The position numbers and the translations under genes are program-made. From positions 1 to 64,000 of IMG/VR virus record IMGVR_UViG_3300032214_001486: 64,000 bases of DNA. One strand, 5' to 3'. Below, piece after piece: positions 314-54,348 of this stretch (its first letter is position 1; each line of letters starts with the position of its first letter). Source of the DNA: a virus. The notes under the pieces were generated by a model, which saw nothing but the letters and a program-made list of their open reading frames with translations, searched no databases and was not told the DNA's origin.

Positions 314-342
314 TTGACGAGCGGCAGAGCCCGTAATATACG
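314..342 (+). promoter_or_regulatory. Sigma70-like promoter, TTGACG-17-TATACG
   Basis: The -35 TTGACG (314-319) and -10 TATACG (337-342) are separated by 17 bp. The spacer begins AGCGGCAGAG, which carries the CGGCA element shared by many promoters in this window. It follows the terminator at 252-287 and precedes the GTG start at 384. Confidence 0.8.
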
Positions 343-1950: not shown

Positions 1951-2727
1951 ATGACCTCGACCCTCCCCGCCCCCATCCTCGCCCTTGTGGGCACCACCCT
2001 CCCCCTCGCGGACGTTGCCTCCGCCGTGGCCGCCTGCGCGGCCCGTGCTGGCGACCACGACCGCGCCGCCGCCGCCACCTTCGCCGCCGAGTCCAGCGCG
2101 CTCGCGCACGGCTGGACCGGCGGTGACCTGGGCAGCCCCGCCGCCGCCGCGGACACCGCCGAGGCGGGCCCCGCCGCCTGGGATAAATGGGTCGCCCTGA
2201 TTAACAAAACGGCCGAACCCAGCCAATTCGCCATTATCCTCCCTCCCCCCGCCGGGAGCCCGCTTGCCTCCACCACCGGCACCGGCCGCAGCGTTTGGGC
2301 CGCGCTGCCCGGCGGGGCCCTGCTGCGCGTCACCACGCGCGCCGCGGGGTCTGACCTCGCGCACATTGTCGCGGCTGATATTTTCGATGCGGACAAAACC
2401 GAGCCCGCCGACAGCGCCGCTATTCTCGCGGAAAACCTCCGCGCCCGCCATTTTGACGAGCCCGACGACGACTGCTGGCTGAGCCTCGCCCTGCCCGGCC
2501 CGGCCGTGCTCGCCCGCCTGACCGGCGGGAAAATCACCCTGCGCCCCGTTGGCCGCCGGGAGCCCTCCGCTGTGGCCGAGGGTCGCCACCTGCTCCCCAC
2601 CGTGGCCGCCGTGCTGCGCCCCGCGGTAGAGGCTCGCCGTGTGCGGAAGGCCGCCGAGGCCGCCGAGCGTGAGCAAGAGAGCGTGCTGGCCGCCGTGCTG
2701 GGCCGCCCGATGCCCCGGCAGCGTTGA
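1951..2727 (+). CDS. Hypothetical protein, 258 aa
   Basis: I choose the ATG at 1951 (TGGA five bases upstream, after the structured leader); an in-frame ATG at 1915 would add 12 residues. The product is Ala-rich and acidic in the middle with a strongly basic, helical C-terminal third (RRVRKAAEAAEREQE). The last bases overlap the promoter at 2724: the stop TGA lies inside its TTGACG -35 box. Function unknown. Confidence 0.65.
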   Translation: MTSTLPAPILALVGTTLPLADVASAVAACAARAGDHDRAAAATFAAESSALAHGWTGGDLGSPAAAADTAEAGPAAWDKWVALINKTAEPSQFAIILPPPAGSPLASTTGTGRSVWAALPGGALLRVTTRAAGSDLAHIVAADIFDADKTEPADSAAILAENLRARHFDEPDDDCWLSLALPGPAVLARLTGGKITLRPVGRREPSAVAEGRHLLPTVAAVLRPAVEARRVRKAAEAAEREQESVLAAVLGRPMPRQR

Positions 2728-2752
2728 CGGTCGGCAACGACCCGGTTAGGCC
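2724..2752 (+). promoter_or_regulatory. Promoter TTGACG-17-TAGGCC overlapping a stop codon and a terminator
   Basis: The -35 TTGACG (2724-2729) contains the TGA stop of the upstream gene. The spacer begins GTCGGCA and ends GGT, and the -10 is TAGGCC (2747-2752), so the start should be near 2759. The terminator hairpin at 2750-2771 begins inside the -10. Confidence 0.75.
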
Positions 2753-2783
2753 CCCGGCTCCACCTGGGGGCTTTCGCTTTTTT
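2750..2783 (+). terminator. Terminator hairpin overlapping the helicase promoter
   Basis: GCCCCC (2750-2755) pairs with GGGGGC (2766-2771) and is followed by TTTCGCTTTTTT up to the ATG at 2784. RNA started near 2759 lacks the 5' arm, so the hairpin should end only read-through RNA from upstream. The GGGGG of the 3' arm is also the nearest SD-like sequence to the helicase start. Confidence 0.7.
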
Positions 2784-4742
2784 ATGACCACGAAACACAC
2801 CGGCCCAAAACACACCCTCCCCGACGCTGCCCCGCCGCCCCCGGTCCCTGACCTCGACCTCGACCTCAATGGCCTGCCCGACCGCATTACGCCCGTGCCG
2901 GCCACCTTGTCTTTTGCAATTCCCCTGCTGTCTGAGGCTGAGTCAGACCGGCTGCGCGCATGGGCTCCCGGCGTCACCCTACAAAAGCGCCGGAATACGG
3001 AATATCTGACGTTGCGGGCGCCTAATCATGCCTTCGACCTGATGCTACCGTATTTCGCGGAGACACAATTAGCGGTCCTGACCACGCCCGTAAACCCCCG
3101 TCCCGGTGTCTACCCCGGCGCTACCGTGGGTTCTGCGACCTGGGAGAGTGTGTGTAAGGTGCTCGCCCACAACGGCGAAATGAAAATGTCCTACATAACG
3201 GACTTCATTCTCGACTATCAAAAAGAAGCCGTCTGCTTTGCCGCAACGAAGGTGGGCACCCTATTCCACCACCCTACCGGCTCTGGTAAGACCTTCGCCT
3301 CTATTGTCTGGTCCCTGCTCTACCCTGGCACCATTCTAATTGTGACGCGGGCTCCGACCCGTGAGCAATACGCCCGGCAGGTAGAGCGGTTCACCCACTT
3401 GCGTCCTTTTGTGTGCAAGCCTTCCAACGAGATCCGCAAGCGGGATAAATGGAAAACGCTGGCCGAGTACATGGACTGGACCCGCGAAAACAATCAGCGG
3501 GCCGTCGTCGTGGTCGGCTGGGAGGCCGTGCCCGATTGGGCTGCCCAATTGCTCCCGCTCGCCCCGAACACCGTCATTTTCGATGAAAGCCACACGGGGC
3601 GAAACAAGAAACGGTGGGAAGCCGTGGTCGTGCCCCCGAAGAACGCTCCAAACCGCAAGGAAGTCGAGGCAAAGATTAAGGCGCAGGGCGGCTCAATCAA
3701 ACCCGGCGATGATGGGGAGGACACCGGGTTCATTCCCCTGGAAAATGTCTCCTACTACGCATCTGAGATTAGCCGCAAGGCAATCCGCCGGCTGGCGACG
3801 ACGGCCACGCCCATTCCTGACCGGGTGCGCGGCCTGTGGGCGCAGCTTGATCTGCTTGAACCCTACTGCTGGGGCAGCTACAGGTTCTACGCCATTCGAT
3901 ATTGCGACGGCAAACCGGGGCAGTATGGCGGTTTTGACGATGCCGGGTCGTCTAACCTGACCGAGCTATCCTTCCGTATGCACTATATCAAGCACTACGT
4001 TTCCTCGGAAGTCTCCCGCAAAAACCTCCCCGCAAAGCGCCGAGAAGCGTGGTATATTCCGCCCTCTCAGCAAGTACAGACGACGGGTTGGAAGTCTCAA
4101 TGGAAAAAGGCGCAAGCGTTGGGTGCCCAGCACCAGCTTGAATTGGCGCTTGAAATGGCCGCGGCGGCCAAGCGACCGGCCGTTGTCTCCCGCATTATGG
4201 AACACGTTGAGAGCAAGCACAAGATCGTCGCTTTCACGGGCCGGCGAAAGGACTGCGAGGATTTAGCTGAGTCCATCCGTAGCAAGTCGCCGGAGCTACG
4301 GGTGTGGTGCGGCCACGGCGGCCAGAGCCAAGCCGAGCGGAACAAAATGCTGGCCGAGTACGCCGCCCATCCCGGCCCCTGTGTGCTGGTCGGCACCGGG
4401 CAAGCCCTGGGAACCGGCGTGGACGGGCTTCAATGCACCGACGCGGCATTTTTCGTGCTGCTACCCTACGATCCCGGCAGCTTAGATCAGTGGGAAGGCC
4501 GCTTCACCCGCCACGGTCAGGACCGCCCCGTGGTGATCTACTACCCGATTGCGGAAAAGACAGCCGACGAGCGCATAGCCGACATTCTGCTCAATAAGCT
4601 GCCCGCGGTTGAAAAGCTGGCCCACGACCCGAGCCTCAACGGTGCGGCGGAAGCCCTCATGGGCAAAATCGAGGACACCGAAGCCTTTGCTCGCTCCGTA
4701 CTGGTCGGGCTGGGCGACAATAACGATGACCTGTGGGGCTGA
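2784..4742 (+). CDS. Superfamily 2 DNA helicase (SNF2/DEAD-like), 652 aa
   Basis: ATP-dependent DNA translocase or helicase. Visible motifs in order: Walker A HPTGSGKT (about residue 167), Walker B DESH (about 268), motif III TATP (about 340), a C-terminal helicase lobe from about residue 470, and motif VI QWEGRFTRHGQDR (about 575). This is the RecA-like two-lobe core; length suits phage SNF2-type helicases. A Pro-rich N-terminal segment precedes it. The start at 2784 lies right behind the promoter/terminator element at 2724-2783. It may act in replication initiation or repair; the exact subfamily is uncertain. A second SNF2-type gene enters from the window's right edge. Confidence 0.88.
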   Translation: MTTKHTGPKHTLPDAAPPPPVPDLDLDLNGLPDRITPVPATLSFAIPLLSEAESDRLRAWAPGVTLQKRRNTEYLTLRAPNHAFDLMLPYFAETQLAVLTTPVNPRPGVYPGATVGSATWESVCKVLAHNGEMKMSYITDFILDYQKEAVCFAATKVGTLFHHPTGSGKTFASIVWSLLYPGTILIVTRAPTREQYARQVERFTHLRPFVCKPSNEIRKRDKWKTLAEYMDWTRENNQRAVVVVGWEAVPDWAAQLLPLAPNTVIFDESHTGRNKKRWEAVVVPPKNAPNRKEVEAKIKAQGGSIKPGDDGEDTGFIPLENVSYYASEISRKAIRRLATTATPIPDRVRGLWAQLDLLEPYCWGSYRFYAIRYCDGKPGQYGGFDDAGSSNLTELSFRMHYIKHYVSSEVSRKNLPAKRREAWYIPPSQQVQTTGWKSQWKKAQALGAQHQLELALEMAAAAKRPAVVSRIMEHVESKHKIVAFTGRRKDCEDLAESIRSKSPELRVWCGHGGQSQAERNKMLAEYAAHPGPCVLVGTGQALGTGVDGLQCTDAAFFVLLPYDPGSLDQWEGRFTRHGQDRPVVIYYPIAEKTADERIADILLNKLPAVEKLAHDPSLNGAAEALMGKIEDTEAFARSVLVGLGDNNDDLWG

Positions 4743-5721: not shown

Positions 5722-6131
5722 GCCTCCCGACGTTAACCTTTCATCCGTTCTCCCCCGACAGCCTGCCACCAAAAGACGAGATTATCTTAGTCCTGTGCCG
5801 CTCGATTGCGTCCACCCGGATTACGGGTATTTCTCGCCAGGGGCAAAATTTACGGGAGTGTCGAGTCTTTCCGGCAATTGCCGGGTTCGCACAAGATCCG
5901 TGGGGCCGGGACTACTTGGTTTCTCTCCATTTTGTGTCCCCCGCGACTATATGGACGGCAGAGTTGCCCGTGTTGCCCCCTGAATACGAAGGTAAACCCG
6001 CGTCCCACCCGGTTTTTGAGGGGGAATGGGGCCCCCTGCACCCCGATACCTACCGTGCGCGCTACCAAGGCAGTATTCAGGGCGATAATATTCTCCAATA
6101 CTGCGAGGGCTGGGCCGCGATTGCCCCTTGA
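5718..6131 (+). CDS. Hypothetical protein, 137 aa
   Basis: Starts at ATG overlapping the stop of the Nudix-like gene (ATGA), so the two are translationally coupled. The product looks globular and strand-rich, with several Trp and Pro (ELPVLPPEYEGKP), and no known motif. Its stop TGA lies in the -35 box of the promoter at 6128. Confidence 0.65.
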   Translation: MSLPTLTFHPFSPDSLPPKDEIILVLCRSIASTRITGISRQGQNLRECRVFPAIAGFAQDPWGRDYLVSLHFVSPATIWTAELPVLPPEYEGKPASHPVFEGEWGPLHPDTYRARYQGSIQGDNILQYCEGWAAIAP

Positions 6132-6486: not shown

Positions 6487-7167
6487 TTGCCTCCGAAAAA
6501 GCAAAAGAAGCCGCTCGCCGCAGCCCCGAAGTCGGCTATGTCTGATTTTGACGAAATTGAGTGGTACACGAACCTTCTCGCTCTCTGCGAAGGCAACCGG
6601 GGCGGCGGCGAGGGCGAATGGGTTTGGGGCGGCCCGAAAAGCGGCAACCCGACGATCTATTGCTCCAACCTGAGCGTCGCCGCCGCCTGTGTCCGCCGCC
6701 GCGCTCCGCTGAAAATCCGCGTGCATGGCGGCTCGACACCGCACGCGCTGACCTTGCTCTACGAAGCCAAACACGTTCGCAAGCCGGAAACGCTGATCCG
6801 GCCGGCAAAAGACAAGGACGCCGGTCGCACGCCGAGCGCCGCCCTGGCAGAAATTGCCGCGCTCTGCGCCCACAAGGCCGGGTCGTCTGAGGCGGAATGG
6901 TCGATTAGCAAAATCAATGGTGCGCCCCGCGTGCAGTTTTTCACGGCAATCTTGTCGAGCGCCGGTCGCTTGATCTACCGTAACCCGGAAATTCTCGAAA
7001 ACCCCGAGCTTATCCGCATCGACGGGGAGCCCGACGCTTTTGCGGCGTGGGTTCCCTCCCCGTGGGTTCGCCGGCCAGAAACCTTGATCCGCCCGGATAC
7101 TGCCACAACCCCCGACGTTGACACTGACACCGACACCGACACTGACACCGACACGACGGAGGACTGA
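6487..7167 (+). CDS. Hypothetical protein with TD-repeat tail, 226 aa
   Basis: TTG start placed by GGAG at 6476-6479 with the genome's usual C-rich spacing; ATG at 6538 is a weaker choice. It opens with a basic PPKKQKKP stretch, contains two similar ET LIRP segments (KPETLIRPAKD and RPETLIRPDTA), and ends with a run of Thr-Asp repeats coded by GACACC units. The TD repeat should be disordered and acidic. Function unknown. Confidence 0.6.
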   Translation: MPPKKQKKPLAAAPKSAMSDFDEIEWYTNLLALCEGNRGGGEGEWVWGGPKSGNPTIYCSNLSVAAACVRRRAPLKIRVHGGSTPHALTLLYEAKHVRKPETLIRPAKDKDAGRTPSAALAEIAALCAHKAGSSEAEWSISKINGAPRVQFFTAILSSAGRLIYRNPEILENPELIRIDGEPDAFAAWVPSPWVRRPETLIRPDTATTPDVDTDTDTDTDTDTTED

Positions 7168-9846: not shown

Positions 9847-9890
9847 TTGACCCCCTACCCCCGCCGGGATAACCCCCGCCGGGGGATTTT
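9847..9890 (+). promoter_or_regulatory. Promoter TTGACC-17-TAACCC with overlapping terminator-type hairpin
   Basis: The -35 TTGACC (9847-9852) and -10 TAACCC (9870-9875) are 17 bp apart. CCCCC (9873-9877) pairs with GGGGG (9881-9885), followed by ATTTT and then the ATG at 9892. The predicted start near 9882 falls in the 3' arm, so own transcripts cannot form the hairpin while read-through RNA can. The GGGGGA is also the SD candidate. Confidence 0.68.
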
Positions 9891-9891
9891 C

Positions 9892-10889: not shown

Positions 10890-10942
10890 TTGACGACTGG
10901 CAAGTAAGGGGATAGAACGTCGGGGCGGGAGCGAAAGCCCCG
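10890..10942 (+). promoter_or_regulatory. Promoter TTGACG-17-TAGAAC of the tRNA island, with hairpin
   Basis: The -35 TTGACG (10890-10895), spacer ACTGGCAAG onward and -10 TAGAAC (10913-10918). CGGGGC (10921-10926) pairs with GCCCCG (10937-10942); the predicted start near 10925 removes most of the 5' arm. It stands 32 bp before tRNA-Leu and probably starts the RNA-island transcript. Confidence 0.72.
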
Positions 10943-10973
10943 GCCCCTTGAAACCCGAATAAGCATGGCGGCT

Positions 10974-13043: not shown

Positions 13044-13467
13044 GGGCGCGAAACGGCTTCGACAGGGCGGTGGAAAGGGAGATAGCGTCGTAGGCGTGGT
13101 CCCGGCCTTATACGGTACGCAGAGCAAACTGCCAACAACAACAACCACTTCGGTAACGCTGTCCCCGTCCTCGTGGCGGTCGCGGCGTGATTGAAGTCCG
13201 GGGACCATGTGAGCCCCGGTGCCAGCCCAAGAAGCTAACCCGCTCTTTGTCTGGTGTGCGCGCAGGGTTCTGATGGGGGAAGGGGAACACCACGCAGCCC
13301 CTACACCCCGCTAATCAGCCCGGATATTAGCTCGCCGGGGGGCAAAAGAGTGTGCGACACCCCGGAAAGACGGGGGACACCCGGCCCGCTGGGTTAAGTA
13401 CGGGCAGACGACGTAACTGTTAAACTGAAAGCTGTTCTGGACGCGGGTTCGACTCCCGCCGCGTCCA
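13044..13467 (+). ncRNA. ssrA: tmRNA (one-piece), with a 19-residue tag
   Basis: The 5' GGGCGCG pairs with 3' CGCGTCC (one G-U) to form the tRNA-like acceptor; a T arm (GCGGGTTCGACTCCCGC) precedes the 3' end. The 5' domain has the typical GAAACGGCTTCGACAGGG. A tag frame starts with GCC at 13131 and ends TGA 13188-13190; it encodes ANNNNHFGNAVPVLVAVAA, a tag with an Ala-Ala end as needed for protease recognition. tmRNA with SmpB frees stalled ribosomes and tags the peptide. The gene is uninterrupted at about 424 nt. Phage tmRNAs are known but uncommon. No smpB is visible. Confidence 0.92.
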
Positions 13468-13473
13468 CTCTTT

Positions 13474-24798: not shown

Positions 24799-24865
24799 TT
24801 GACAAACTAACCGTAGCCGGTTAGACCTGGGCGCCAGCGGTACTCCCGCTGGCGCTCGACTTTTT
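24799..24865 (+). promoter_or_regulatory. Promoter TTGACA-17-TAGACC with terminator-like hairpin
   Basis: The -35 TTGACA (24799-24804), spacer ending CCGGT, -10 TAGACC (24822-24827). GCGCCAGCGG (24831-24840) pairs with CCGCTGGCGC (24846-24855) followed by TTTTT (24861-24865). The predicted start near 24834 cuts 3 bp off the stem, so read-through RNA forms the full terminator and own RNA a shorter one at its extreme 5' end. Confidence 0.7.
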
Positions 24866-24894
24866 CAGCTATTTCCAAACAAAATGGAACGATA

Positions 24895-32382: not shown

Positions 32383-35091
32383 ATGAAAGAGGAAGCCAAG
32401 GCCCGCGGCTGTAAGTGTGACGAATGTCCGCTAAAAAATCAGCCCGGCCCTGTGTTCCCTGAACCCCGACCCGTTGGGACGCCTCTCGCACTTATTGGGG
32501 AATTTCCAGGGGATATGGAAGTGAGTGAGGGGCGTCCCTTTGTCGGGCCGCAAGGGAAGCTGCTGGCGAAGGTACTGAAAAAGGCAGGTCTGGATCGAAA
32601 CCGCGCCCATATGACCCTGGCCGTGCTCTGTCAGCCGCCGGGCAACGATATGAAAAAGCTGCTGGCGCGGCTCCGCTCAGACAACGCCGCGAAAAAGAAA
32701 GAGAATACGAAGCGGTCGAAACAGGGACTCCCGCCCGTACCGTTGACCCCAAACCCGGTGGACTGCTGCCGGCCGAGGCTGGTCGCGGAAGTCGCAGCTT
32801 TTCACTATCTCATGCCGCTCGGAGGGTTAGCGGCGGGGACAATCTTAGGGGGCACACCCGCCATTGACCCTATCCGTGGCTCGCTCATGGACGGGTCTTT
32901 GATCTATGACGGGGAACGAAACGTGATGGGCCTCACCGATCCATCGGTGCCCGGTCACCCCGTCCGCATGATCCCCAGCCTGTCGCTTGCCCGCGTCCGC
33001 AAACAGCCCCGTTGGTTAGAGACATTCCAGGGTGATTTTGAGCGTATGGCCCGGTGGATGAACGGCCAATTGCGCTGGACAAACCCACAAGAGGCATATC
33101 ACCCCTCCGCGGACGCCCTCTATGCCTTCCTCTCGTCGGGCCAGCCCGCGTATACCTTTGACGTGGAAACAGACGGTATCGCCGCGCTGGCCTGCAATAT
33201 CCGCTGCATATCCATCGGCACGCCAACCCATGTGATGTGCATTGGCACCCGGCCAAAAGACGCGGACAAATCAGTACGCGGGGATGGGGGCTTCTACCCT
33301 CCCGCGGAAATGGAGCGGGTCAAAGAGGTTCTGCGCTGGTTTTTCACAAACCCCGCAATCCTGAAAGTCGGCCACAATGCCGGTTACTATGACCGTCTGG
33401 TGGTCCGTCAATGGCTCGGCATAGACCCACACCCGATCTTAGACACCATCCTGCTTCACCGCTTGGCAGAGAGCGAGCTTCCACACTCGCTGGGCTTTGT
33501 CGGCAGCAAGTACACCGACGTTCACGCTTGGAAAGCCAACCGGGCGGGAAAGAAGCTGGCGACCGACGCGGAAAGCGACCACGAATTGCATCACTACTGC
33601 AATCTCGACGTTGCGGTAACCGCCCGCGTGCTCGCCCCTCTATGGGCCGACGTAAACAAGGCCCAGCAGCAATCTCTGGTCGAAAAAGACCATCTGGTGC
33701 AGCGTGTGTGCGCCGACATGCACACCGCGGGTATGCGGGTCAATCAGGAGGCACGAAAGAAGGCCGAGGACGACCTGATCCGCTCTATTGTCAAGGTGCG
33801 GACTCAGCTACAAGAAATGTCGTCGGCTGACTTCAACCCCGGCTCTACCCACCAGTTACGCAAAATTTTGTTTGACGAATGGAAGCTAACGCCTCCGTTG
33901 GATGAAGAACTTAGGTACACCGAAACCGGCGACCCGAGCACGTCCGACAACATCATGCGGTCCCTGCTCAGCTTGGATCACCTGCCGGAGCACCCGCGGC
34001 AATTCATCATCGGCCTGCGGCGCTACCGGAAACTTACGAAGGAATTGGGGACATATGTAGCCAAGCTGCGGCCTATGTCCGAGGTCATCCCGACCGGGAT
34101 GGGCTTTGACGCAGACGAGGAGGAGGAAGTACGCAAAGAGCGGGAGGAACGCGGATACGAAAAGCGCGGGATTGTGTGGGCAGACGGCCGGATGCGTCCG
34201 GGCTATAACGCCCACGTCGCCCTGACTGGACGGCTATCGAGCAGCAGCCCGATCAACGCGCAGAATTTCCCCAAGCATCTACGCAAACTCATTATTCCGC
34301 AGCCCGGCCATGTGTTTGTCGGCGCCGACGCCGACCAGCTTGAATTGCGGATCGCCGCGGCCCGCTGGCAGCTTAAACGCTACCTTGACGCGCTTTTAGA
34401 GGGTATCGACCCTCACTCAATGGTGACCGCGCAAGCGATCTTCGGTGATGTATTTATGAAGTGTGCGGGCTGGCCGGGCCCCACGAACGGAAACAAGTGG
34501 TCGGGCGATGCGTATGACTACCGGCAGCTTGCGAAGATCATCCAGTATGCCTTTCAATACAAAGCGTCGGTCGAGACAGGCACCCGGATTATTCAGTCTA
34601 CCGAGGTCGAGGACAAAGACACCGGGCGTACTCGCCTGCCCTATGTCAAAAAGACTGTCCGAGAAGTCCGGCAGATGCGCGAAGCGTGGCTGCGCGGTGT
34701 CCCCGAGTTAGAGACGGGCTGGGAAAAGGAGATTGCGCACTATCGGCAATACGGTTATGTGCAGGAGCCTGTGCATGGTCGGCGCCGGTTCTGCAAAGAC
34801 GGCGAAAACCCTAACGAGATTGTTAACTTCCCGATCCAGGGGAGCGCGTCGGCCTTGATGAACAATGCCATGATCGCCATTTGGCAGGAGATCCCCCTGC
34901 ACAAGTGGGGTCCGGGTACGGGCCTTTTGACGCAAACTCACGACGCTTTGGTGGTGGAGTGCCCCATTGATCAGGCGGATTGGGTCAAGGCTGTAATCGA
35001 GCACTACATGAACCAGACCCACCCTTCGCTCCCTGGGGTGCGGTTCACCGCAACGGCCGATATTGGCTATAACTGGAAGGAGGTAGGCTGA
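32383..35091 (+). CDS. Uracil-DNA-glycosylase / DNA polymerase A fusion, 902 aa
   Basis: Three parts are seen. (1) Residues about 8-165 match a family 4-like Fe-S uracil-DNA glycosylase: CKCDECPL, LIGEFPGDMEVSEGRPFVGPQ, LCQPPGND and a later CC. (2) Residues about 255-425 are a 3'-5' exonuclease: FDVETDG (Exo I), GHNAGYYD (Exo II), HHYCNLD (Exo III). (3) Residues about 640-900 are a family A polymerase: motif A VGADADQLELR, motif B RQLAKIIQYAFQYKAS, motif C THDALVVE. In motif B, Tyr replaces the usual Phe and Lys the usual Gly; motif C is HDA rather than HDE. The replicative polymerase of this phage, coupled to uracil recognition. GGGGA precedes the ATG. Confidence 0.88.
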   Translation: MKEEAKARGCKCDECPLKNQPGPVFPEPRPVGTPLALIGEFPGDMEVSEGRPFVGPQGKLLAKVLKKAGLDRNRAHMTLAVLCQPPGNDMKKLLARLRSDNAAKKKENTKRSKQGLPPVPLTPNPVDCCRPRLVAEVAAFHYLMPLGGLAAGTILGGTPAIDPIRGSLMDGSLIYDGERNVMGLTDPSVPGHPVRMIPSLSLARVRKQPRWLETFQGDFERMARWMNGQLRWTNPQEAYHPSADALYAFLSSGQPAYTFDVETDGIAALACNIRCISIGTPTHVMCIGTRPKDADKSVRGDGGFYPPAEMERVKEVLRWFFTNPAILKVGHNAGYYDRLVVRQWLGIDPHPILDTILLHRLAESELPHSLGFVGSKYTDVHAWKANRAGKKLATDAESDHELHHYCNLDVAVTARVLAPLWADVNKAQQQSLVEKDHLVQRVCADMHTAGMRVNQEARKKAEDDLIRSIVKVRTQLQEMSSADFNPGSTHQLRKILFDEWKLTPPLDEELRYTETGDPSTSDNIMRSLLSLDHLPEHPRQFIIGLRRYRKLTKELGTYVAKLRPMSEVIPTGMGFDADEEEEVRKEREERGYEKRGIVWADGRMRPGYNAHVALTGRLSSSSPINAQNFPKHLRKLIIPQPGHVFVGADADQLELRIAAARWQLKRYLDALLEGIDPHSMVTAQAIFGDVFMKCAGWPGPTNGNKWSGDAYDYRQLAKIIQYAFQYKASVETGTRIIQSTEVEDKDTGRTRLPYVKKTVREVRQMREAWLRGVPELETGWEKEIAHYRQYGYVQEPVHGRRRFCKDGENPNEIVNFPIQGSASALMNNAMIAIWQEIPLHKWGPGTGLLTQTHDALVVECPIDQADWVKAVIEHYMNQTHPSLPGVRFTATADIGYNWKEVG

Positions 35092-35092
35092 T

Positions 35093-35401
35093 ATGTCGAA
35101 GTCTAATCAGACCCCGGATAACTGGGTTTTTTGCAGCCCGGATGGAAAGTACGGCGGGCTTCTGTTCAACGTGCCCCGCTCGGAAGTAGAGCAGGCGGCG
35201 CTGCTTGCGCTCGACGGCCTGAGCCCGGAAACGGACTACCAAGAGGTGAAGTACACCCGGTACAAGGGCTCCACCCTCGTTCTCGCGTTCCGCCCCACCG
35301 ACGAAGATGAGGGCGTCGCTGAGGTCATTTTGGGTGATATGGGCACCACGAAGGCCCTACACGAATTCGCAGAGTGGCCCATTAACTTCGACGAAGAATA
35401 A
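35093..35401 (+). CDS. Hypothetical acidic protein, 102 aa
   Basis: ATG 1 nt after the polymerase stop with GGAGG upstream. Compact strand-rich sequence ending in acidic residues (PINFDEE). Close linkage suggests a replication-related role, but no motif supports it. Confidence 0.65.
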   Translation: MSKSNQTPDNWVFCSPDGKYGGLLFNVPRSEVEQAALLALDGLSPETDYQEVKYTRYKGSTLVLAFRPTDEDEGVAEVILGDMGTTKALHEFAEWPINFDEE

Positions 35402-35411
35402 GGAGGACAAC

Positions 35412-35657
35412 ATGAAGTATTCGTACACCCTGGACGTGGACGTAACTCCGGCTGAGGTTGCCGAGCTTGTGCAGGTGGCAACACAATTGCCCAGCGTGTT
35501 CCGCGCGTTTGTCGGCGAAATGGCGGATATTCAGCGGGAAGTCGCTGACCGTGCGGCTGTCCGCGCCGCCGTGTCTCGCGCCCGCGCGAAGGCTGAGGCT
35601 GAGGCTGAGGCCGAGGCGAAAGCCAGTCGCCGCCGCGGTCGTCGTCGGCGCCGCTGA
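35412..35657 (+). CDS. Small protein with Arg-rich end, 81 aa
   Basis: ATG with AAGGAGGACAAC. The first half is neutral and helical; the second is AKAEAEAEAEAKA followed by a run of Arg (RRRGRRRRR). Such tails bind nucleic acid; function unknown. Confidence 0.65.
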   Translation: MKYSYTLDVDVTPAEVAELVQVATQLPSVFRAFVGEMADIQREVADRAAVRAAVSRARAKAEAEAEAEAKASRRRGRRRRR

Positions 35658-35686
35658 TCTGCTGAGTCTGTACCGGAGGAATGACC

Positions 35687-36478
35687 ATGACAACAGACGG
35701 GCTGTATCCCCTGCGTGATGACCCTAAGCTGCTGTTTTGCTTGGGGGATACAGCCGCGGTCTGCGCTAAACTCCCCGAGGGGCGCTTTTCGCTTATTCAT
35801 TCTGATCTGCCGTTCAACACCGGCAAGGTCCAGAAGGGGAGAGCGGGCGCCTACGCAGACACCTTCGAGGATTTCCCGGCTTGGCTCACAACGCAAGTAA
35901 CCCGCTACAAGGCCCTTTTGGCGCCCAACGGGCTGCTTGCGTTGCAGTTAGACGACCGGGAACACTTGACGCTGCGAAACGTGTGCGATGCAGTCATGGG
36001 CCCCGATAGCTACAAAGGCACCCTGATTTGGCACTATGACACCGGGGGCGTGGCTAAGAATTGGTGGTCGATGAAACACCAATACATCGTCCTCTATTCG
36101 CTGGGAGAGCCGATCTTCCACCCCAACGCCGTGCCCACCCTGCCCCGCAAGTCCGCGCCCAAGCGGGTCATCAACGCGGCGGGCGAAGAACGGGTGTATG
36201 ACGGGGATAAGAAAATTTCGTCTGTCTGGAATATCAATTGGTCTACTACCGCACCGGAGCGGTGTGGATACCCGAGCCAAAAACCGATGGATTTGGCGCA
36301 GACGCTAATCTCGGTACACACCAACCCCGGCGATTGGGTCTTAGACCCGTGCTGCGGGTCGGGCACAACCGGCTTTGCGGCCCACAAGTTAGGCCGCAAC
36401 GCGCTGATCGTGGACAGGAACTCGGAAGCCTTAGAGGCCGCCCAGCGCCGGGCCGCGGGCGGGTATGACCGGCCTTAA
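35687..36478 (+). CDS. DNA methyltransferase with a variant catalytic motif, 263 aa
   Basis: Beta-class order: the catalytic motif near residue 38 reads SDLPFNTG rather than DPPYNTG, and motif I is LDPCCGSGTTG near the end. QKPMDL precedes it. The Asp-Pro-Pro-Tyr to Asp-Leu-Pro-Phe change is unusual and may alter target or activity. I prefer the ATG at 35687 (GGAGGA seven bases upstream) over 35681. It abuts the DUF4326 gene. Confidence 0.8.
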   Translation: MTTDGLYPLRDDPKLLFCLGDTAAVCAKLPEGRFSLIHSDLPFNTGKVQKGRAGAYADTFEDFPAWLTTQVTRYKALLAPNGLLALQLDDREHLTLRNVCDAVMGPDSYKGTLIWHYDTGGVAKNWWSMKHQYIVLYSLGEPIFHPNAVPTLPRKSAPKRVINAAGEERVYDGDKKISSVWNINWSTTAPERCGYPSQKPMDLAQTLISVHTNPGDWVLDPCCGSGTTGFAAHKLGRNALIVDRNSEALEAAQRRAAGGYDRP

Positions 36479-37345
36479 ATGACCACCGACCTGCTACTCG
36501 ACCCTGCCCGTATCCCGCGGGTAGTGAACCAAAAGCACGCGCAATACACTGTTTACATCGGTCGCTCGGGCCGCGGGGCCTTCTCCGTTCTCGGCAACCC
36601 GGTTATTCGTGGTGATCTCTGCCCCGTCTGCGGGCAGGTTCACGACTACCGGGGCGATACCCTGCCCTGCTTTGAGCGATACGCTCGGGCCAGGATGGAG
36701 ACAGACAGCAGCTATCGGGCGGCGATCTTAGCCTTGACGGGTCAAGTCCTCGGCTGTTTCTGCAAGCCCGGACCCTGCCACGGGGATATACTAATCAAGT
36801 TATGGGGAGAGCTAATGGCACCAAAAGTAAGCTACACACCGCTGTTTTCGCAGGCGCAGGCCGCCGATCCGACCGTCAGCCGGGTTCTGGAACACTACGA
36901 ATTGCAGTTACAGGCAGCCCCCGCTTGGCTGGGTGATTTCTCGCTAAAGGTTTGGAGTACAGCCGATGCTCCCAGCCCCTTAAAGCTGCTTGCGGGCCGC
37001 ATGGTCGCAAAGGCGCGGGATTGTGTGTGGTCGCTGCCCCGGCAGGCGGAAACACTCGGCGGCTACAACACCCTGTATTTACAGCGGTATTTTGAGGGTC
37101 AGTCAGTTAAGCCCCACAAAGACCCCAAGAACAACCGCCACAGCGTCCTTTTGCTCTCCCTGGGGGACTTCGATCCCCCTGAGCACCTGTTTGACGGGGC
37201 GCCCCACCGCCTCCCAACGGGTACACTTCTGCATTTTTCAGCTTGGCTCGATACCCTCGGCGGCTCTTGGCTTAGCCCAGCCCATAGCGTCGGCCCGTTG
37301 CCCCGCGGCGAACGCTGGGCCCTCATTCTCACCCACAATGTTTAG
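36479..37345 (+). CDS. DUF4326 domain fused to a 2OG-Fe(II)-oxygenase-like domain, 288 aa
   Basis: Residues 12-108 match DUF4326: VVNQKHAQYTVYIGR, LGNP, and GCFCKPGPCHGDILIKLW. Residues about 150-288 look like a small 2OG-Fe(II) oxygenase (AlkB-like): KPHKDP gives HxD, SPAHSV the distal His, and GERWALIL the 2OG-binding Arg. An in-frame ATG at 36815 has a strong GGGGAGA SD and would give the oxygenase alone. ATG follows the previous stop directly (TAAATG). A role in base modification or repair is inferred. Confidence 0.7.
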   Translation: MTTDLLLDPARIPRVVNQKHAQYTVYIGRSGRGAFSVLGNPVIRGDLCPVCGQVHDYRGDTLPCFERYARARMETDSSYRAAILALTGQVLGCFCKPGPCHGDILIKLWGELMAPKVSYTPLFSQAQAADPTVSRVLEHYELQLQAAPAWLGDFSLKVWSTADAPSPLKLLAGRMVAKARDCVWSLPRQAETLGGYNTLYLQRYFEGQSVKPHKDPKNNRHSVLLLSLGDFDPPEHLFDGAPHRLPTGTLLHFSAWLDTLGGSWLSPAHSVGPLPRGERWALILTHNV

Positions 37346-37357
37346 GGGGCAAACAAT

Positions 37358-37885
37358 ATGTCGGTAACTTGGACGTTGGCGGGACAACGACACAAAGAGA
37401 ACACCCGCGTTAGGTACTCGATACGGAGTGTTTCGCACGTTTGCCCTACCTGCGAGGGCTCGGGTCGGGTTGGAGAAAAAGTTCCCACCTGGGATTGCTG
37501 CCCCGGCTTCGTTGACGATGGGGGAGATTGGTATTCTTGCCCCTTCGAGGAAGCGCAAAAATTGGGCCCCATTACTTACCGCTTTGAGATTGAAGGCGAG
37601 GGTGACTTCGCTGCTTGCCTGCATTGTGGCCCAAAATACCCTGAACCCGTGACCATGAAAGAGAAGATAGAAGCCCGGCTACAGGGCTCTGAGTCTTGTA
37701 CGGACTGTTCTCGTAACGGGCAATCCTTGGGGAAGATCGTCCACTTTGAGCTTGTTCTGCTGTTTCCGGTCGGGGCTCTAACTGACCAGGGGGCGGACTC
37801 TATCGTTTTAGCTACAGACAAGTCTCGGTCAGCCCTGCAAAGAGCGTGTTTAAGCCTCTATCTAACGCAGAACCGGCTAACCTAA
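37358..37885 (+). CDS. Hypothetical protein with DnaJ-type zinc motifs, 175 aa
   Basis: ATG with GGGGGCAAAC upstream. CPTCEGSGRVG (about residue 28) is a CxxCxGxG motif of the DnaJ zinc centre; further pairs (CC, CLHC, CTDC) could complete two zinc sites. The C-terminal part is helical. Probably a zinc-stabilised binding protein; function unknown. Confidence 0.65.
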   Translation: MSVTWTLAGQRHKENTRVRYSIRSVSHVCPTCEGSGRVGEKVPTWDCCPGFVDDGGDWYSCPFEEAQKLGPITYRFEIEGEGDFAACLHCGPKYPEPVTMKEKIEARLQGSESCTDCSRNGQSLGKIVHFELVLLFPVGALTDQGADSIVLATDKSRSALQRACLSLYLTQNRLT

Positions 37886-37898
37886 CGGGGAGAACACC

Positions 37899-38525
37899 AT
37901 GCTGGAAGTCATCACAGGCTGTATGTACGCAGGCAAAAGCTCGGAGCTATTGCGCCGGGTCCGCCTCAGTCAGATCGCCGGGCTTAGGTGCATGTCTTAC
38001 AAGCACAGCCTGGATCAAAGGTATTCCCCCACACACATCGCTACCCACCCCAACCCTGCGGCGGCCTCGACCGGGCAGCAGCAGCAGGAATTCGGGGAGT
38101 GTGTGCTGGTGCGGAACGAATGGGAGTTAGGGCAGGCGCTCACAGACGCCCTTGAAGCAAAGGCAGACGTGATCTCTATTGACGAAGTGCAATTCTTCGG
38201 AAAGGAAGCCCTGCACGACATTTTCGCGGCGGCCGACCGGGTGCGTGTCATCGTCGCGGGGCTCAGCCTTGACGCTTACGGTGTGCCTTTCGACATTATG
38301 CCCGAGCTATTGGCAGACGCCGACGAGATTAAGCGCCTGCACGCCGTTTGCACAAACAAGGTCCGGGGCCCCCTTGGCGTAGAGGCACTCTGCGGCAAAA
38401 AAGCATCGCGTACCGTCGATCTCGACCCCAAGGGAGAGCAAAATCAAGGTAAAACCCCGCTTGTAGCCGTGGGTTCCTATGGAAAGTATGCTGCCCGTTG
38501 CCGTCATTGTTGGACTTGGGGCTGA
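37899..38525 (+). CDS. tdk: Thymidine kinase, type II, 208 aa
   Basis: Phosphorylates thymidine to dTMP. The P-loop GCMYAGKSSELLRR is near the N-terminus (residues 7-20), the Walker-B-like DEVQFF near 94, and the zinc site Cys pairs (HAVCTN, LCGKK, CRHCW) in the C-terminal lasso region. Length fits. ATG with GGGGAGAACACC. Together with Ham1-like and Nudix-like genes it points to control of the dNTP pool. Confidence 0.9.
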   Translation: MLEVITGCMYAGKSSELLRRVRLSQIAGLRCMSYKHSLDQRYSPTHIATHPNPAAASTGQQQQEFGECVLVRNEWELGQALTDALEAKADVISIDEVQFFGKEALHDIFAAADRVRVIVAGLSLDAYGVPFDIMPELLADADEIKRLHAVCTNKVRGPLGVEALCGKKASRTVDLDPKGEQNQGKTPLVAVGSYGKYAARCRHCWTWG

Positions 38526-38534
38526 ACCCTAACC

Positions 38535-38563
38535 TTGACGAGCGGCAGGAAACGCATTATGGC
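38535..38563 (+). promoter_or_regulatory. Promoter TTGACG-17-TATGGC overlapped by a terminator
   Basis: The -35 TTGACG (38535-38540), spacer AGCGGCAGG onward, -10 TATGGC (38558-38563). The predicted start near 38570 lies in the loop of the hairpin at 38561-38584. Confidence 0.76.
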
Positions 38564-38589
38564 CCCTGGGCAACGCCGGGGGCCCTTTT
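38561..38589 (+). terminator. Terminator hairpin overlapping a -10 box
   Basis: GGCCCC (38561-38566) pairs with GGGGCC (38579-38584), then CTTTT. The 5' arm shares bases with the -10 at 38558-38563, so RNA started here lacks it; RNA coming from the thymidine kinase gene has both arms. Confidence 0.7.
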
Positions 38590-38592
38590 CGT

Positions 38593-39087
38593 ATGTTTCC
38601 AAGCATGTATCCAGTCTTAGGCGTATATTCTATCTTTCTGGCACACCCTTCCTCTGCGACCTTACCCGACATTGACTCTTGGGCGCAAACAATTGTGTCC
38701 TTCTACCCTCAAATGAGCGTAGAGGCGGTCGTACCCGCCCGTGTCTCGATGCGGAACCACCTGGGCTCGGTAGGCGGCTGGGAGGCTTGGTATCGGTGGG
38801 TTGCCGGGGCAAAGGACTTGGCGGGCCAGCCCGTCTACTCAGTGATGATTTGCCCTAAACAGTGGGTAGGCAAGCGGACGTACCGCTTGGTCGAAGAATT
38901 CCTACGGGTAGGCAAGCCCGTCTACTTTATCGACGGTGACGGGTTAACCCCCGTCGTCGAGGTGAAGATAGATGACGGGGCTGAGCGTGACGCCAACGGG
39001 GAACCGTTGAATTGGTCATCGTCTTGGGTACTCTGCCCCGCCGCGGAGCCCGATGGGGCATGGGAGAACGGCACATGGAACCCGTAA
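38593..39087 (+). CDS. Hypothetical protein, 164 aa
   Basis: ATG at 38593 is near the end of the terminator hairpin; the only SD-like bases are the hairpin's GGGGG, and ATG 38605 is an alternative. The sequence (IFLAHPSSATLPDIDSWAQTI, KQWVGKRTYRLVEEFL, PVYFIDGDG) looks like a Rossmann-type nucleotide- or sugar-handling fold, but I cannot assign it. Overlaps the MT-A70 gene by 13 nt. Confidence 0.6.
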   Translation: MFPSMYPVLGVYSIFLAHPSSATLPDIDSWAQTIVSFYPQMSVEAVVPARVSMRNHLGSVGGWEAWYRWVAGAKDLAGQPVYSVMICPKQWVGKRTYRLVEEFLRVGKPVYFIDGDGLTPVVEVKIDDGAERDANGEPLNWSSSWVLCPAAEPDGAWENGTWNP

Positions 39088-39638
39088 ACAGCTTGACTCC
39101 GGCCTTACCGGCAGACCCGGCTCATTTTCCCTGCATCCTCATGGACCCGCCCTGGACAGAGAACGGGGGCGGCAAGGTCAAGCGGGGCGCGGATAGGCAC
39201 TATCCTACGCTTCCGGTGCGGGAGATCCTGCCCGTGGTGCTCAAAAGCCCATTGTGGCGCCCCGATCCGGCCGGTTGTGTCCTTTGGTGCTGGGCCACGA
39301 ATAACTACCTACCTGACGCTCTTTGGCTAATTGATGCGCTGGGCTTCCGGTACATCACCAACGCCGTGTGGGTAAAGCAGGGGCGGGCGGGCTTGGGTCA
39401 ATGGCTTCGCGGCCGGCATGAATTGCTGCTGCTCGCCAGTCGAGGGGAGAGCCCGGCGAGCACGGTGCGGACAAATCGAAAAGACCTGTCCACCCTTCTA
39501 ATCGCGGAGCGGGGCGCCCATAGCGCCAAGCCTGAGAGGGCATACAAGTTAATCCAAGAGCGTTGTCGGGGCCCTTACGCTGAATTGTTTGCACGAAAGC
39601 CGCGGCCCGGCTGGTCTGTGTGGGGGAACGAAGTATGA
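39075..39638 (+). CDS. MT-A70-family adenine methyltransferase, 187 aa
   Basis: Motif IV ILMDPPWTENGGG (about residue 25) with the catalytic DPPW, then YPTLPVREILPV, a core CVLWCWATNNYLPDALWLIDALGFRYITNAVWVKQG, and the C-terminal SAKPERAYKLIQERC and ELFARKPRPGWSVWGNEV, all as in the family. It methylates N6 of adenine in DNA or RNA. It is the intact counterpart of the deleted copy at 25396. GGGAGAA precedes the ATG. Confidence 0.88.
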   Translation: MEPVNSLTPALPADPAHFPCILMDPPWTENGGGKVKRGADRHYPTLPVREILPVVLKSPLWRPDPAGCVLWCWATNNYLPDALWLIDALGFRYITNAVWVKQGRAGLGQWLRGRHELLLLASRGESPASTVRTNRKDLSTLLIAERGAHSAKPERAYKLIQERCRGPYAELFARKPRPGWSVWGNEV

Positions 39639-40012
39639 GTATGAGCAGGGCGTGGACGGATCAACCGATTGATCACAGCGGCTTAGAATTCACACCCGAT
39701 CAGATGATTTGGGTAAAGGAGGCGCAAGCCTACTACACCCAGGTTTTCATTCACGACGAGGCCGGGACTGAAACGGTCGCAGAGTTAGGCGAAAGGGTGC
39801 GGGCTACGGTGCCCATTGAGCTAACGTGCGGCGACTACTACTTAGGTCGGTTCGGGTTTTTGGGGCAACAGGTCTACTTGTTAGGTGGTGTACCTACGGT
39901 GGGCTCTTTGTCCCCATGCTCAGTTTGCGGCGAGCCGCAGACGTTTGAGCGAAACAGTCAAAAGTATTGTGTCCCCTGCGGGGGTTATGTAGGGGGAAAT
40001 GATGGAGGCTGA
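39635..40012 (+). CDS. Hypothetical protein with C-terminal zinc ribbon, 125 aa
   Basis: ATG overlapping the MT-A70 stop, with GGGGGAACG upstream. The C-terminal part has CSVCGEPQ and YCVPCGGY, a four-Cys ribbon. The N-terminal part is an acidic mixed domain. Overlaps the next start by 14 nt. Confidence 0.65.
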   Translation: MSMSRAWTDQPIDHSGLEFTPDQMIWVKEAQAYYTQVFIHDEAGTETVAELGERVRATVPIELTCGDYYLGRFGFLGQQVYLLGGVPTVGSLSPCSVCGEPQTFERNSQKYCVPCGGYVGGNDGG

Positions 40013-40364
40013 CAACACACGGTATCCCATTCGTCCGGCAAAGCTGGTGACCATCCTCTCGGATGGCGGGTACTCTCCGACCCAAGTGAGCCAGATGTTA
40101 GGGGGCCGCATCAGTTTTCGCGCCCTCTACAGGTGGCGAAACGAGGAGGCCATGCCCCAGCGGTATGCTGATTATGTGGATGTTTTGCAGTTAGCTACCG
40201 GCTTAGGTCTGCTCGGCGCGCTGCCTGAGCAGGCAGAAACCGAGGAACAGCCGGTGTTCCCGGCGTTGGCCCCTGAACCCGATGTAGATGACGCAGATAC
40301 AGCCTCCGCAGAAACAGACCCCTATGCGCTCGACGTGGACGGGGACAGCGACGGCGAAGAATAA
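39999..40364 (+). CDS. HTH-type small protein with acidic tail, 121 aa
   Basis: ATG with GGGGGAA upstream. YSPTQVSQMLGGRISFRALYRWRNEEAMP is a helix-turn-helix of the MerR/XRE style. The C-terminal 45 residues are strongly acidic and end DGDSDGEE. Possibly a DNA-binding regulator with a DNA-mimic or activation-type tail. It ends just before the promoter at 40372. Confidence 0.65.
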   Translation: MMEADNTRYPIRPAKLVTILSDGGYSPTQVSQMLGGRISFRALYRWRNEEAMPQRYADYVDVLQLATGLGLLGALPEQAETEEQPVFPALAPEPDVDDADTASAETDPYALDVDGDSDGEE

Positions 40365-40371
40365 CAGCCCC

Positions 40372-40422
40372 TTGACGAACGACAAAGGGTAAGCTAAGGG
40401 GGGACAGCTTTGCGTACCCCCC
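40372..40422 (+). promoter_or_regulatory. Promoter TTGACG-17-TAAGGG with overlapping hairpin
   Basis: The -35 TTGACG (40372-40377), spacer AACGACAAAG onward, -10 TAAGGG (40395-40400). GGGGGG (40398-40403) pairs with CCCCCC (40417-40422); the start near 40407 lies in the loop. No T-tract follows, so the hairpin may act as an RNA-end or pausing element. Confidence 0.7.
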
Positions 40423-40446
40423 ACAACACAAGGAAATGAGTGAAAA

Positions 40447-42267
40447 ATGCTGTTCATTGAACGGGTGATTGGTAACGTCAAGGGCGGCGCCGATGTGAAG
40501 ATCGGCCGCTGCACGCTGATCTCTGGCCCAAACGGGTCGGGGAAGTCCACCGTGGTCAATATCATTGAGCTTGCCTTGATGGGCTATGCCTCCGATATTG
40601 TCGGCCGCCCCGAGGTACGCAAAGGGGTAGACCTGATCACGCTGGCGCCGGAAGGCGAGGCCCTAAAGGCCGAGGTCTACACGACCGAGAACGACCGGGC
40701 ACACTTCACCATCGAGCGGAACGGCCCCGGCAAAACGAAGGAAGCCGAGCATGTGGGCCTTGCGGATATTGCCGTGGTGTGGCCCATTCGGGAGGCGGTT
40801 ACCGCGCTGCGCGGGTCAACCGCCACGGCGCGGTCCTTTGTGCTGCGCCACGGCGGGTTGAGCGTAGCTGAGGACAGCATTTTGGCCCGGTTTGGCGACG
40901 AGCAGACCCGGACCCTGTATCAGACCCTTGCGGCCGGCGTGGTGGCCCAGGCAAAGACCGATCTCGACACGGTGGACGTGCTTTTGGGCGTACAGGACGC
41001 CGCGAAGGTGGCAGAACGGACGATCAAGGCCAAGGCCAAGGGCGCAAAAGAGATCATCGACCAGACCAGCGCGACGCTGACGGTTGATTTTGCACCCGAG
41101 GCAGAAAAGGAAGCCGAGGACAAGATCAACGCCTTGAACGAAAAGTTGGCGAACCTGCGCGTTGCTCGCAAGCCCCCGCCGGCTAAGCCTGCGGGTCTGA
41201 GCAAGGCTACGTTTGAGGCCAAAATCAACGCTTTGGTGGATACGATCAACAAGGGGGAACAGCACCTTGCCGACGTGGCCGGGCAGTACCAGAAGTTGAG
41301 CGAGGATTTGGCTAATCCTGGCTTGACCACCCCGCCGGCCCGCACCATCGACCCGGCGCAGGTCGAGGGGGTCATCGCCGCGGACGGAACCTATGCCTTC
41401 CACCAGCAGCACGCGGAATTGGCCCATTGTATTGTGTGCTGGCAGCCCTGGCAGCCGGGGAGCGAGGTTTTGGCCGCCCGGCGTCAGACCATTTCCGGTC
41501 TGCTGACTGCGTACCGCGAGCAAGAACAGAAGATTAGTGATCAGGCGAGTTGGGTCCAGACCGCCAACACCCGGATGCAAGAGCTTATGCGGCAGGGAAA
41601 CACCCTGCACCAGATGAACGTAGCCAATCGAGCCGCGGCGGAAGCCTTCGCAGCGCAGTACCAAGCTGCGGGCGAGGAAGAACAAGAGCAGCCCGTTGAC
41701 TTTTCCGAGATCGACCGGCAGATCAACGAAGTTATGACACAATTGGCTGATGCCCGTAAGGGGCTGACGGAAATTCAGCAGACCCGCGCGAGTTGGGCCC
41801 TGGTACGCAAGGCACAGAAGCAAATCATCGAAGCCAAGCGGGAGTCCGAGGCTGCGAAGAATTTGGCCGAGGAGGCGGGTTCTGTCGCCGATGCTCTGCT
41901 CTCGCAGGGTCGCGCCGGGTTTGTTAGCCGGGTTCAAGCCTTCCTGCCGCCGGACGATGAATTCGACGTGGTGCTCAAAGACGGCAAGCGTTCCGTCTGT
42001 ATGTTTGGGTTCCGGCGAAACGGGGTGCTGCACACGGCGTTGTCGGGCGCGGAATGGGCCCGGCTGACGATTGCGTTGGGCGCCGCCATCATCCCCACCG
42101 AAGGGCGGGTACTGGCTATTCTTACACCCGAAGAACGGGCGTTTGACGCCGATACGCTGGGCGAAGTCATGGAAGCCTTGAAAGCAGCCCCCGGCCAAGT
42201 TATCCTCACCTCGCCAGTAGAGCCCCCGAGCCCGATTGAGGGCTGGACGATGCTTAGACGCGGGTAG
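40447..42267 (+). CDS. Rad50/SbcC-like SMC-type ATPase, 606 aa
   Basis: Walker A GPNGSGKST (about residue 28) opens an ABC ATPase half; long coiled coils follow, with a central CIVC (about residue 333) in zinc-hook position as in Rad50. The signature-like ALSGAEWARLTIALGA is near residue 530, and a Walker-B position reads LAILTPEERAFDAD, lacking the usual hydrophobic-DE pair. It should tether or process DNA ends. At 606 aa it is short for Rad50. No SbcD-like nuclease gene is adjacent. ATG 40447 with AAGGAA upstream. Confidence 0.8.
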   Translation: MLFIERVIGNVKGGADVKIGRCTLISGPNGSGKSTVVNIIELALMGYASDIVGRPEVRKGVDLITLAPEGEALKAEVYTTENDRAHFTIERNGPGKTKEAEHVGLADIAVVWPIREAVTALRGSTATARSFVLRHGGLSVAEDSILARFGDEQTRTLYQTLAAGVVAQAKTDLDTVDVLLGVQDAAKVAERTIKAKAKGAKEIIDQTSATLTVDFAPEAEKEAEDKINALNEKLANLRVARKPPPAKPAGLSKATFEAKINALVDTINKGEQHLADVAGQYQKLSEDLANPGLTTPPARTIDPAQVEGVIAADGTYAFHQQHAELAHCIVCWQPWQPGSEVLAARRQTISGLLTAYREQEQKISDQASWVQTANTRMQELMRQGNTLHQMNVANRAAAEAFAAQYQAAGEEEQEQPVDFSEIDRQINEVMTQLADARKGLTEIQQTRASWALVRKAQKQIIEAKRESEAAKNLAEEAGSVADALLSQGRAGFVSRVQAFLPPDDEFDVVLKDGKRSVCMFGFRRNGVLHTALSGAEWARLTIALGAAIIPTEGRVLAILTPEERAFDADTLGEVMEALKAAPGQVILTSPVEPPSPIEGWTMLRRG

Positions 42268-49726: not shown

Positions 49727-49751
49727 GGGGCCTCCGGGGATAGACAGAGAA

Positions 49752-49790
49752 AGCCCGCTCACGTTACCGCAAGCGGGCTCTGCCCGTCAA
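49752..49790 (-). promoter_or_regulatory. Minus promoter TTGACG-18-TAACGT inside a terminator hairpin
   Basis: On the minus strand -35 TTGACG (49790-49785) and -10 TAACGT (49766-49761) are 18 bp apart. AGCCCGCT (49779-49772) pairs with AGCGGGCT (49759-49752) and TTCTCTG follows. The -10 lies in the loop and the start near 49754 lies in the 3' arm, so own transcripts lack the hairpin. Confidence 0.68.
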
Positions 49791-53502: not shown

Positions 53503-54234
53503 CTACTTGCCCCGCACGGACTCCACGAGAGCAAGGGCCAGGGCGTACTCCAATAGGTGCTCATAGGACCATGCAAGATCGGACAGCGTTGCTTTTTGAG
53601 GCACCCCGTTGACAGACCAGCCGGAATTGCCTGTCTTTTTCTTGAACTTTAGGGTTTTGAGGCTGTTCACGAGGCCGGCGACAAGATATGCGTTGATCTC
53701 ACCCCATACTTCGGGTCCGTAGGACTGACCATAAGCCCGGATATTGCGGATTGTGCCCAAGGGGCCGGAGGAAACAGGGTCGGTAGAATGAACGTGGTCG
53801 TTGCTGAACAGCCGGACCATCAGCAGGTAGGTAGAATAGGTGCCTGGGTGGGGGTTATTCCACCGTTTTGTCGTGGGGTTCAGCGTTTGCGCGACAAACC
53901 GATACCCCTTGTTCTTTTTGTACTCCAGCCAGTACCGCATGAGCGTCCGGTGTCGCCCATAGGGGTAGTCCTCCACGACATACGCGGTGTTCTCGTCGGT
54001 ATGCCCATAGAGGACTTCGCCCTTTGGGTCAAATTCAAACGGGGCCCGTTCCCACAATAGCTCTGCGGTACGGATGGGGTTCGCCTCGATCCAGTCGAGC
54101 AGCCGGGCTTGCTCCGGGTAGGCGGCGAGCCAGTCTAATAGGTTCAAGTCGCTGCTGCCCCGCGCCGGGGTGAGCCGCCGCACAATCTTTTGGGCGGCCT
54201 TGTAGGCTAAGGGCTCGTACTTTTCGTCAGACAC
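53503..54234 (-). CDS. Hypothetical protein, 243 aa
   Basis: GTG at 54234 with GAGG seven bases upstream in a leader that is duplicated before the next minus gene. Helical N-terminus (YKAAQKIVRRLTP, WLAAYPEQARLLDWIEANP), aromatic-rich middle, helical C-terminus. No family recognised. Part of a block of large unknown minus-strand genes. Confidence 0.65.
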   Translation of the reverse strand: MSDEKYEPLAYKAAQKIVRRLTPARGSSDLNLLDWLAAYPEQARLLDWIEANPIRTAELLWERAPFEFDPKGEVLYGHTDENTAYVVEDYPYGRHRTLMRYWLEYKKNKGYRFVAQTLNPTTKRWNNPHPGTYSTYLLMVRLFSNDHVHSTDPVSSGPLGTIRNIRAYGQSYGPEVWGEINAYLVAGLVNSLKTLKFKKKTGNSGWSVNGVPQKATLSDLAWSYEHLLEYALALALVESVRGK

Positions 54235-54269
54235 GGGATACCTCGGGGGTGTATGGGGGGAAAGGGGCC

Positions 54270-54299: not shown

Positions 54300-54348
54300 G
54301 CACGGGGCTCACGTTCCTGCGGCCCGCGCCGGCAGAATACCTTAACAC

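Follow-up and report, generated by a model that had tools for sequence, protein, structure and literature searches.

Transcription starts predicted inside intrinsic terminators at operon boundaries of a phage genome

The window that we analyzed comprises bases 1 to 64,000 of a virus record of 104,974 bases, from an uncultured phage, and has a GC content of 0.60. Its genes encode a DNA polymerase, helicases, an exonuclease, a thymidine kinase, an integrase and virion proteins, together with ten tRNAs and a tmRNA. A comparison of the first 20 kb of the window with the collection of annotated phages returned nothing. The contig G001 is 99.97% identical to the present phage, and we gathered further relatives with DNA polymerases that are 38–61% identical. 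As to the host, the DNA polymerase relatives present in genome bins indicate phyla that are unrelated to one another. With Rfam at the gathering score, the boundary elements described below had no match, the only matches in the whole window being the tRNAs, the tmRNA and a twister-sister ribozyme (RF02681, 1836–1925, plus strand; 52.4 bits against a gathering score of 34), which lies in the gap ahead of the gene at 1915. The phage-borne tmRNA (13044–13470, plus strand; tag ANNNNHFGNAVPVLVAVAA) lies within a tRNA-rich region. A 71-base repeat, 80% identical between its copies at 54230–54300 and 55178–55248 (minus strand), spans the gene starts at 54234 and 55182, along with GGGTAGACTGGCCCC.

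A preliminary description of this DNA had placed a GC-rich hairpin with a T-rich run over a promoter at 2724–2783, 9847–9890, 38535–38589, 49752–49790 (minus strand) and 57439–57476 (minus strand). To score the terminators we used a d-score of the d'Aubenton-Carafa type, in which values above 0 are positive; all start positions given here are predicted, the start being placed 7 nt after the −10 element. The sequence and geometry at these five main sites proved to be as described, and all five scores are positive. The first promoter (2724–2752, plus strand; TTGACG-17-TAGGCC with CGGCAA in the spacer; score 20.7) lies ahead of the helicase gene (ATG at 2784) and has its predicted start at about 2759. 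The terminator at 2750–2783 (d 24.9) consists of the hairpin GCCCCCGG/CTGGGGGC at 2750–2771 and the U-run TTTCGCTTTTTT; the hairpin overlaps the −10 element, the predicted start falls in its loop, and truncation at that start removes the terminator. Ahead of the exonuclease gene (ATG at 9892) we found a weak promoter that has no GGCAA element (9847–9875, plus strand; TTGACC-17-TAACCC; p 0.043; predicted start at about 9882), and the hairpin CCCCCGCC...CCGCCGGGGG at 9858–9885, followed by ATTTTC, makes up a terminator at 9858–9891 (d 10.3) that is likewise lost on truncation. Inspection showed that, at this site only, the 3' arm of the hairpin, with GGGGG, lies 6 nt ahead of the ATG and may be usable as a Shine-Dalgarno sequence. 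The third promoter (38535–38563, plus strand; TTGACG-17-TATGGC with CGGCAG in the spacer; p 0.003) precedes a gene with its ATG at 38593. Its terminator (38561–38592, d 23.8) has the hairpin GGCCCCTGG...CCGGGGGCC at 38561–38584, followed by CTTTTCGT. RNA begun at the predicted start at about 38570, at the loop, has no terminator, and a start 2 nt further upstream would leave a weak one (9.3).

The two remaining main sites are on the minus strand, and the −10 element lies in the hairpin loop at both, as the preliminary description had stated. The promoter at 49761–49790 (TTGACG-18-TAACGT with GGCAG; p 0.003) has its predicted start at about 49754, at the end of the 3' arm, and the gene starts at 49726. 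The hairpin GCCCGCT...AGCGGGC (49778–49753) and the U-run TTTCTCTGT form a terminator at 49742–49778 with the highest score of the five (d 36.2), which is lost on truncation; the sequence GGAGG lies outside the hairpin. The promoter at 57447–57476 (TCGACA-18-TGC-TATACT, no GGCAA; p 0.047) matches 10 of 12 consensus positions with an extended −10 element, which is the best ordinary consensus among these promoters. Its predicted start is at about 57440 and the gene starts at 57418. Here the hairpin GCCCCGCC...GGCGGGGC (57465–57439), followed by TTTTCCCT, gives a terminator at 57430–57465 (d 28.1) that also disappears on truncation.

The promoters had originally been called sigma70-like. A generic sigma70 consensus scan of three stretches yielded 3, 5 and 10 promoter-like sites where 4.3, 5.8 and 5.6 were expected, which is at chance in two of the three. 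Because of this result, the motif was rebuilt from the present phage and its relatives, and it is this phage-specific, conserved motif that lends the promoters their support. It consists of TTGAC(G/A), then N3, GGCA(A/G) in the spacer, and TA 17 nt (±1) after the −35 element. In 14.3 kb of intergenic gaps, TTGAC[AG]NN[CGT]GGCA occurs 9 times (0.02 expected) and TTGAC[AG]-N17/18-TA, with the spacer counted after the sixth base, 17 times (0.7 expected). In the relatives G011, G005 and G008 the motif takes the form TTGACG-N3-GGCAA, with TATGAT or a similar sequence 16–17 nt after the −35 element, and it precedes orthologues of the helicase gene at 2784, the AAA gene at 26470 and the SbcC-like gene at 40447; the promoter at 2724 is kept ahead of the orthologous helicase gene in G011. 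Judged from sequence, we regard the promoters as real as a class, since they are conserved ahead of orthologues and their counts in gaps are far above chance. Several −10 elements are nonetheless poor (TAGGCC, TAACCC, TATGGC, TAACGT). It should be noted here that the −35 and GGCAA elements together form a near-palindrome, TTGCC-N4-GGCAA, which may be a site for a regulator. In the relatives this element can be read as a promoter on either strand, which would suit back-to-back starts with one −35 element in common (G011 52747/52760, 52789/52802 and 67287/67300; G005 31684/31697).

The hairpins at all five main sites are GC-rich, have energies of −15 to −21 kcal/mol and are followed directly by a U-run, as is typical of intrinsic terminators, with d values between 10.3 and 36.2; the U-runs at the boundary terminators are short. 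Intergenic DNA held 13 sites with scores above 20, four of the five main sites among them, whereas coding DNA, although about six times as long, held 5. The predicted start is in the hairpin loop at 2724 and 38535 and within the 3' arm at 9847, 49790 and 57476 (the latter two on the minus strand), and the computation leaves RNA begun there with no terminator at any of the five. The motif, the hairpins, their overlap and the loss of the hairpin on truncation were thus all obtained by computation, and they support, at the main sites, the one-way folding of the RNA that had been proposed. The leader from the internal start would be 10–28 nt long (61 nt at 24799).

Among the three weaker sites that had also been listed, only the one at 24799–24868 (plus strand) stood, and only as a partial case. 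It combines TTGACA-17-TAGACC with a strong hairpin at 24831–24855 and a displaced U-run, CGACTTTTTC. The predicted start at about 24834 removes just 3 nt of the arm; the score nevertheless drops from 11.9 for the full element to −24.9 after truncation, and the 7-bp stem that stays is detached from the U-run. The other two, at 10890–10946 (plus strand; TTGACG-17-TAGAAC, then a GC hairpin; d −6.5) and 40372–40422 (plus strand; TTGACG-17-TAAGGG with a GGGGGG...CCCCCC hairpin; d −35.9), have no usable U-run and were rejected; the preliminary description had itself noted a weaker or absent T-run at these sites. Five of the eight listed sites thus carry a convincing terminator that the predicted start would remove. 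GC hairpins with no U-run at the promoters at 1024, 6121, 8180, 43012 (minus strand) and 51161 (minus strand) were also set aside; the predicted start coincides with, or shortly precedes, the beginning of several of them, which are therefore more likely 5' leader structures, and these hairpins may also represent U-less terminators in the style of phiC31. Just past the window, at 65029–65058 of the full record (minus strand), a strong terminator (d 30.4) carries TACACT in its loop; it was left out as no −35 element was found, and is a possible further case with a promoter that has a −10 element only.

The number of overlaps was compared with chance in two ways. Starting from the promoters, a straddling terminator with d of at least 10 was present at 6 of 23, versus 0.02 expected when letters were shuffled around the fixed promoter elements, a count in which some promoters were known beforehand only through the overlap. 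Starting from the terminators, TTGAC-16/18-TA with the start inside the hairpin was found in 5 of 20 intergenic terminators (0.05 expected) and in none of the 22 terminators in coding DNA. The site at 57476 (minus strand) is a sixth case beyond these five, admitted by an ordinary 9-of-12 consensus. All six overlaps lie in gaps between co-directional genes, where read-through is possible, and the repeated use of a hairpin split by a start, which the preliminary description had suspected, agrees with these counts. These data also bear on the idea that the upstream operon uses the hairpins as terminators of the ordinary kind or as stabilizers of its 3' end, that the promoters at 9847, 24799 and 57476 (minus strand) are chance matches, and that the downstream genes are expressed from elsewhere or by partial read-through. 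These three promoters are indeed marginal against an independently trained promoter model (p 0.037–0.047), and GGCAA is absent at 9847 and 57476. However, the promoters at 2724, 38535 and 49790 (minus strand) are strong members of the conserved class and show all features of its motif (at 49790, GGCAG and a spacer of 18), the site at 57476 has its 10 of 12 consensus positions and extended −10 element, and the occurrence of TTGAC..TA in 5 of 20 terminators is beyond chance. We therefore consider this explanation improbable.

A further possibility is that the inverted repeats act as DNA, either as operator palindromes for a regulator or as hairpin promoters. Promoters of the N4 type, used by the virion polymerase, are DNA hairpins, and the −10 element does lie between inverted repeats at 9847, 49790 and 57476. 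The stem sequences are, however, unrelated from site to site, which argues against a common operator; the hairpins are followed by U-runs, and the −35 elements are normal. Moreover, pairing across the −10 element at p ≤ 0.05 was seen at only 3 of 22 promoters in the present phage and at none of 24 in the relatives, so that a general rule placing the −10 element always between inverted repeats was rejected. A role at the DNA level thus seems very improbable.

In related genomes the search for a −10 element within a terminator, which had been suggested as a check, returned one case, and only one, among 48 intergenic terminators. This case (G017 6905–6947), met during the listing of terminators and not sought by site, has TTGACG-16-TACGCT with the −10 element in the loop formed by GGCCCCGG...CCGGGGCC, after which comes TTGTCGTG, and its terminator is lost on truncation. 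We count it as one independent case that supports a hairpin split by the start. It precedes a gene that has no counterpart in the present phage and matches only itself; G001, for its part, is too similar for an analysis of stem covariation. In most relatives the terminator and the promoter are kept apart, side by side, as in G011 (64358–64383 then 64415; 67633–67654 then 67689; 34445–34418 then 34410, minus strand), G008 (5782–5807 then 5826) and G013 (3680–3710 then 3718). The relatives G011, G008, G005 and G013 resemble the present phage in having the same promoter motif, partly ahead of orthologues, and similar U-tailed terminators, but the hairpin at their tandem boundaries ends ahead of the −35 element and nothing is shared (G011 34445–34418/34410; G013 3680–3710/3718). 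The present phage itself has tandem boundaries, with a terminator at 252–277 followed by a promoter at 314–342 (plus strand), and a second pair at 70332–70295 and 70275 (minus strand). In phiC31, lambda, part of T4 and part of P23-45, none of 61 intergenic terminators had a TTGAC..TA start inside. Among the relatives, the arrangement with the start in the hairpin is not family-wide. Since the relatives and the present phage place terminators ahead of the same promoter, the overlap looks like a lineage-specific compaction, a condensed form of the ordinary tandem boundary, and the element probably arose by the merging of separate terminator-then-promoter pairs as used by the relatives.

Such compaction could also be the whole explanation: a terminator and a promoter would both be needed in a short gap, their overlap would be tolerated, and the internal start would be a by-product with the same effect on the RNA. 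The overlapping gaps are only about 56–120 nt long, random placement of the hairpin in them puts the start inside in 10–41% of positions, and relatives with room arrange the two in tandem. On the other hand, the phage has many long gaps, so that gap length does not seem to be under general pressure; in 49–90% of placements the whole hairpin could have lain upstream of the start; and six cases occur here compared with at most one in the relatives. We regard compaction alone as an unlikely, though not negligible, explanation.

The explanation that we favor, and consider reasonably probable, is a compact boundary element made of a phage promoter and an intrinsic terminator with sequence in common, which would terminate read-through RNA only. 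The −35 element would lie upstream of the hairpin, the −10 element in the 5' arm or the loop (abutting the arm at 24799), and the start in the loop or the 3' arm. A polymerase coming from the co-directional upstream genes would transcribe both arms, and the RNA would fold and stop it at the U-run, which would also spare the new promoter from being run over. A polymerase starting inside would make RNA that lacks the 5' arm and would for that reason pass the U-run freely. From this geometry we infer the start sites, the termination and the insulating effect. More tentatively, start-cut terminators may constitute a distinct class of boundary in which about 40–60 nt both end one operon and start the next, with the start inside deciding which RNAs obey, made repeatedly in one lineage and independently in a relative. 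If so, a phage could hold many small operons apart while spending hardly any DNA on it, by the simple rule that the starting point of an RNA settles whether the terminator takes effect. Synthetic operons could borrow such elements as ready-made, compact insulators, and annotation pipelines would have to be wary of gaps of this kind, in which they would report either the promoter or the terminator alone.

Several known systems invite comparison. In IS10 and IS50, RNA from outside carries both arms of the inverted repeat and is silenced by folding, and RNA from the element's own promoter lacks the upstream arm. The likeness is an own start within the inverted repeat, which leaves folding to read-through RNA alone, and truncation at the predicted starts gives this outcome at the main sites. 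The IS10/IS50 hairpin, however, hides the transposase ribosome site and acts on translation, whereas the phage hairpin is a U-tailed transcription terminator and is used at several operon boundaries. At 9847, read-through RNA that survived would hide the putative GGGGG Shine-Dalgarno sequence, as in IS10. The early region of phage phiC31 is said to contain terminator-promoter junctions (Ingham and co-workers, 1995), with terminators that reportedly lack poly-U; the gaps are alike in joining a terminator hairpin to a repeated phage promoter. In the phiC31 gap that we inspected, ahead of gp13 (start at 31242), the 3' arm runs into GGGTTGCCGAC, so that the hairpin ends where the promoter begins and the start lies downstream, an arrangement found at none of the five main sites, where the predicted start is inside; none of 12 scored phiC31 terminators had a TTGAC..TA start inside. 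The late genes of Thermus phage P23-45 are similar in that a terminator is fused to the next gene start, with very short gaps, at many genes. At about 33000–42000 (minus strand) of that genome, U-runs pass directly into ATTC-N4-ATG at many late genes. The difference is that the hairpin ends ahead of the start region and it is the U-run that merges with ATTC-N4-ATG, and none of 24 scored terminators had a TTGAC..TA start inside. We found no direct precedent for a start-cut terminator in the open-access literature. Insertion sequences thus already show the logic, and phages the terminator-promoter junctions; what appears to be new is the variant described here, a U-tailed terminator that the predicted start cuts, repeated at five or six boundaries within a single genome.
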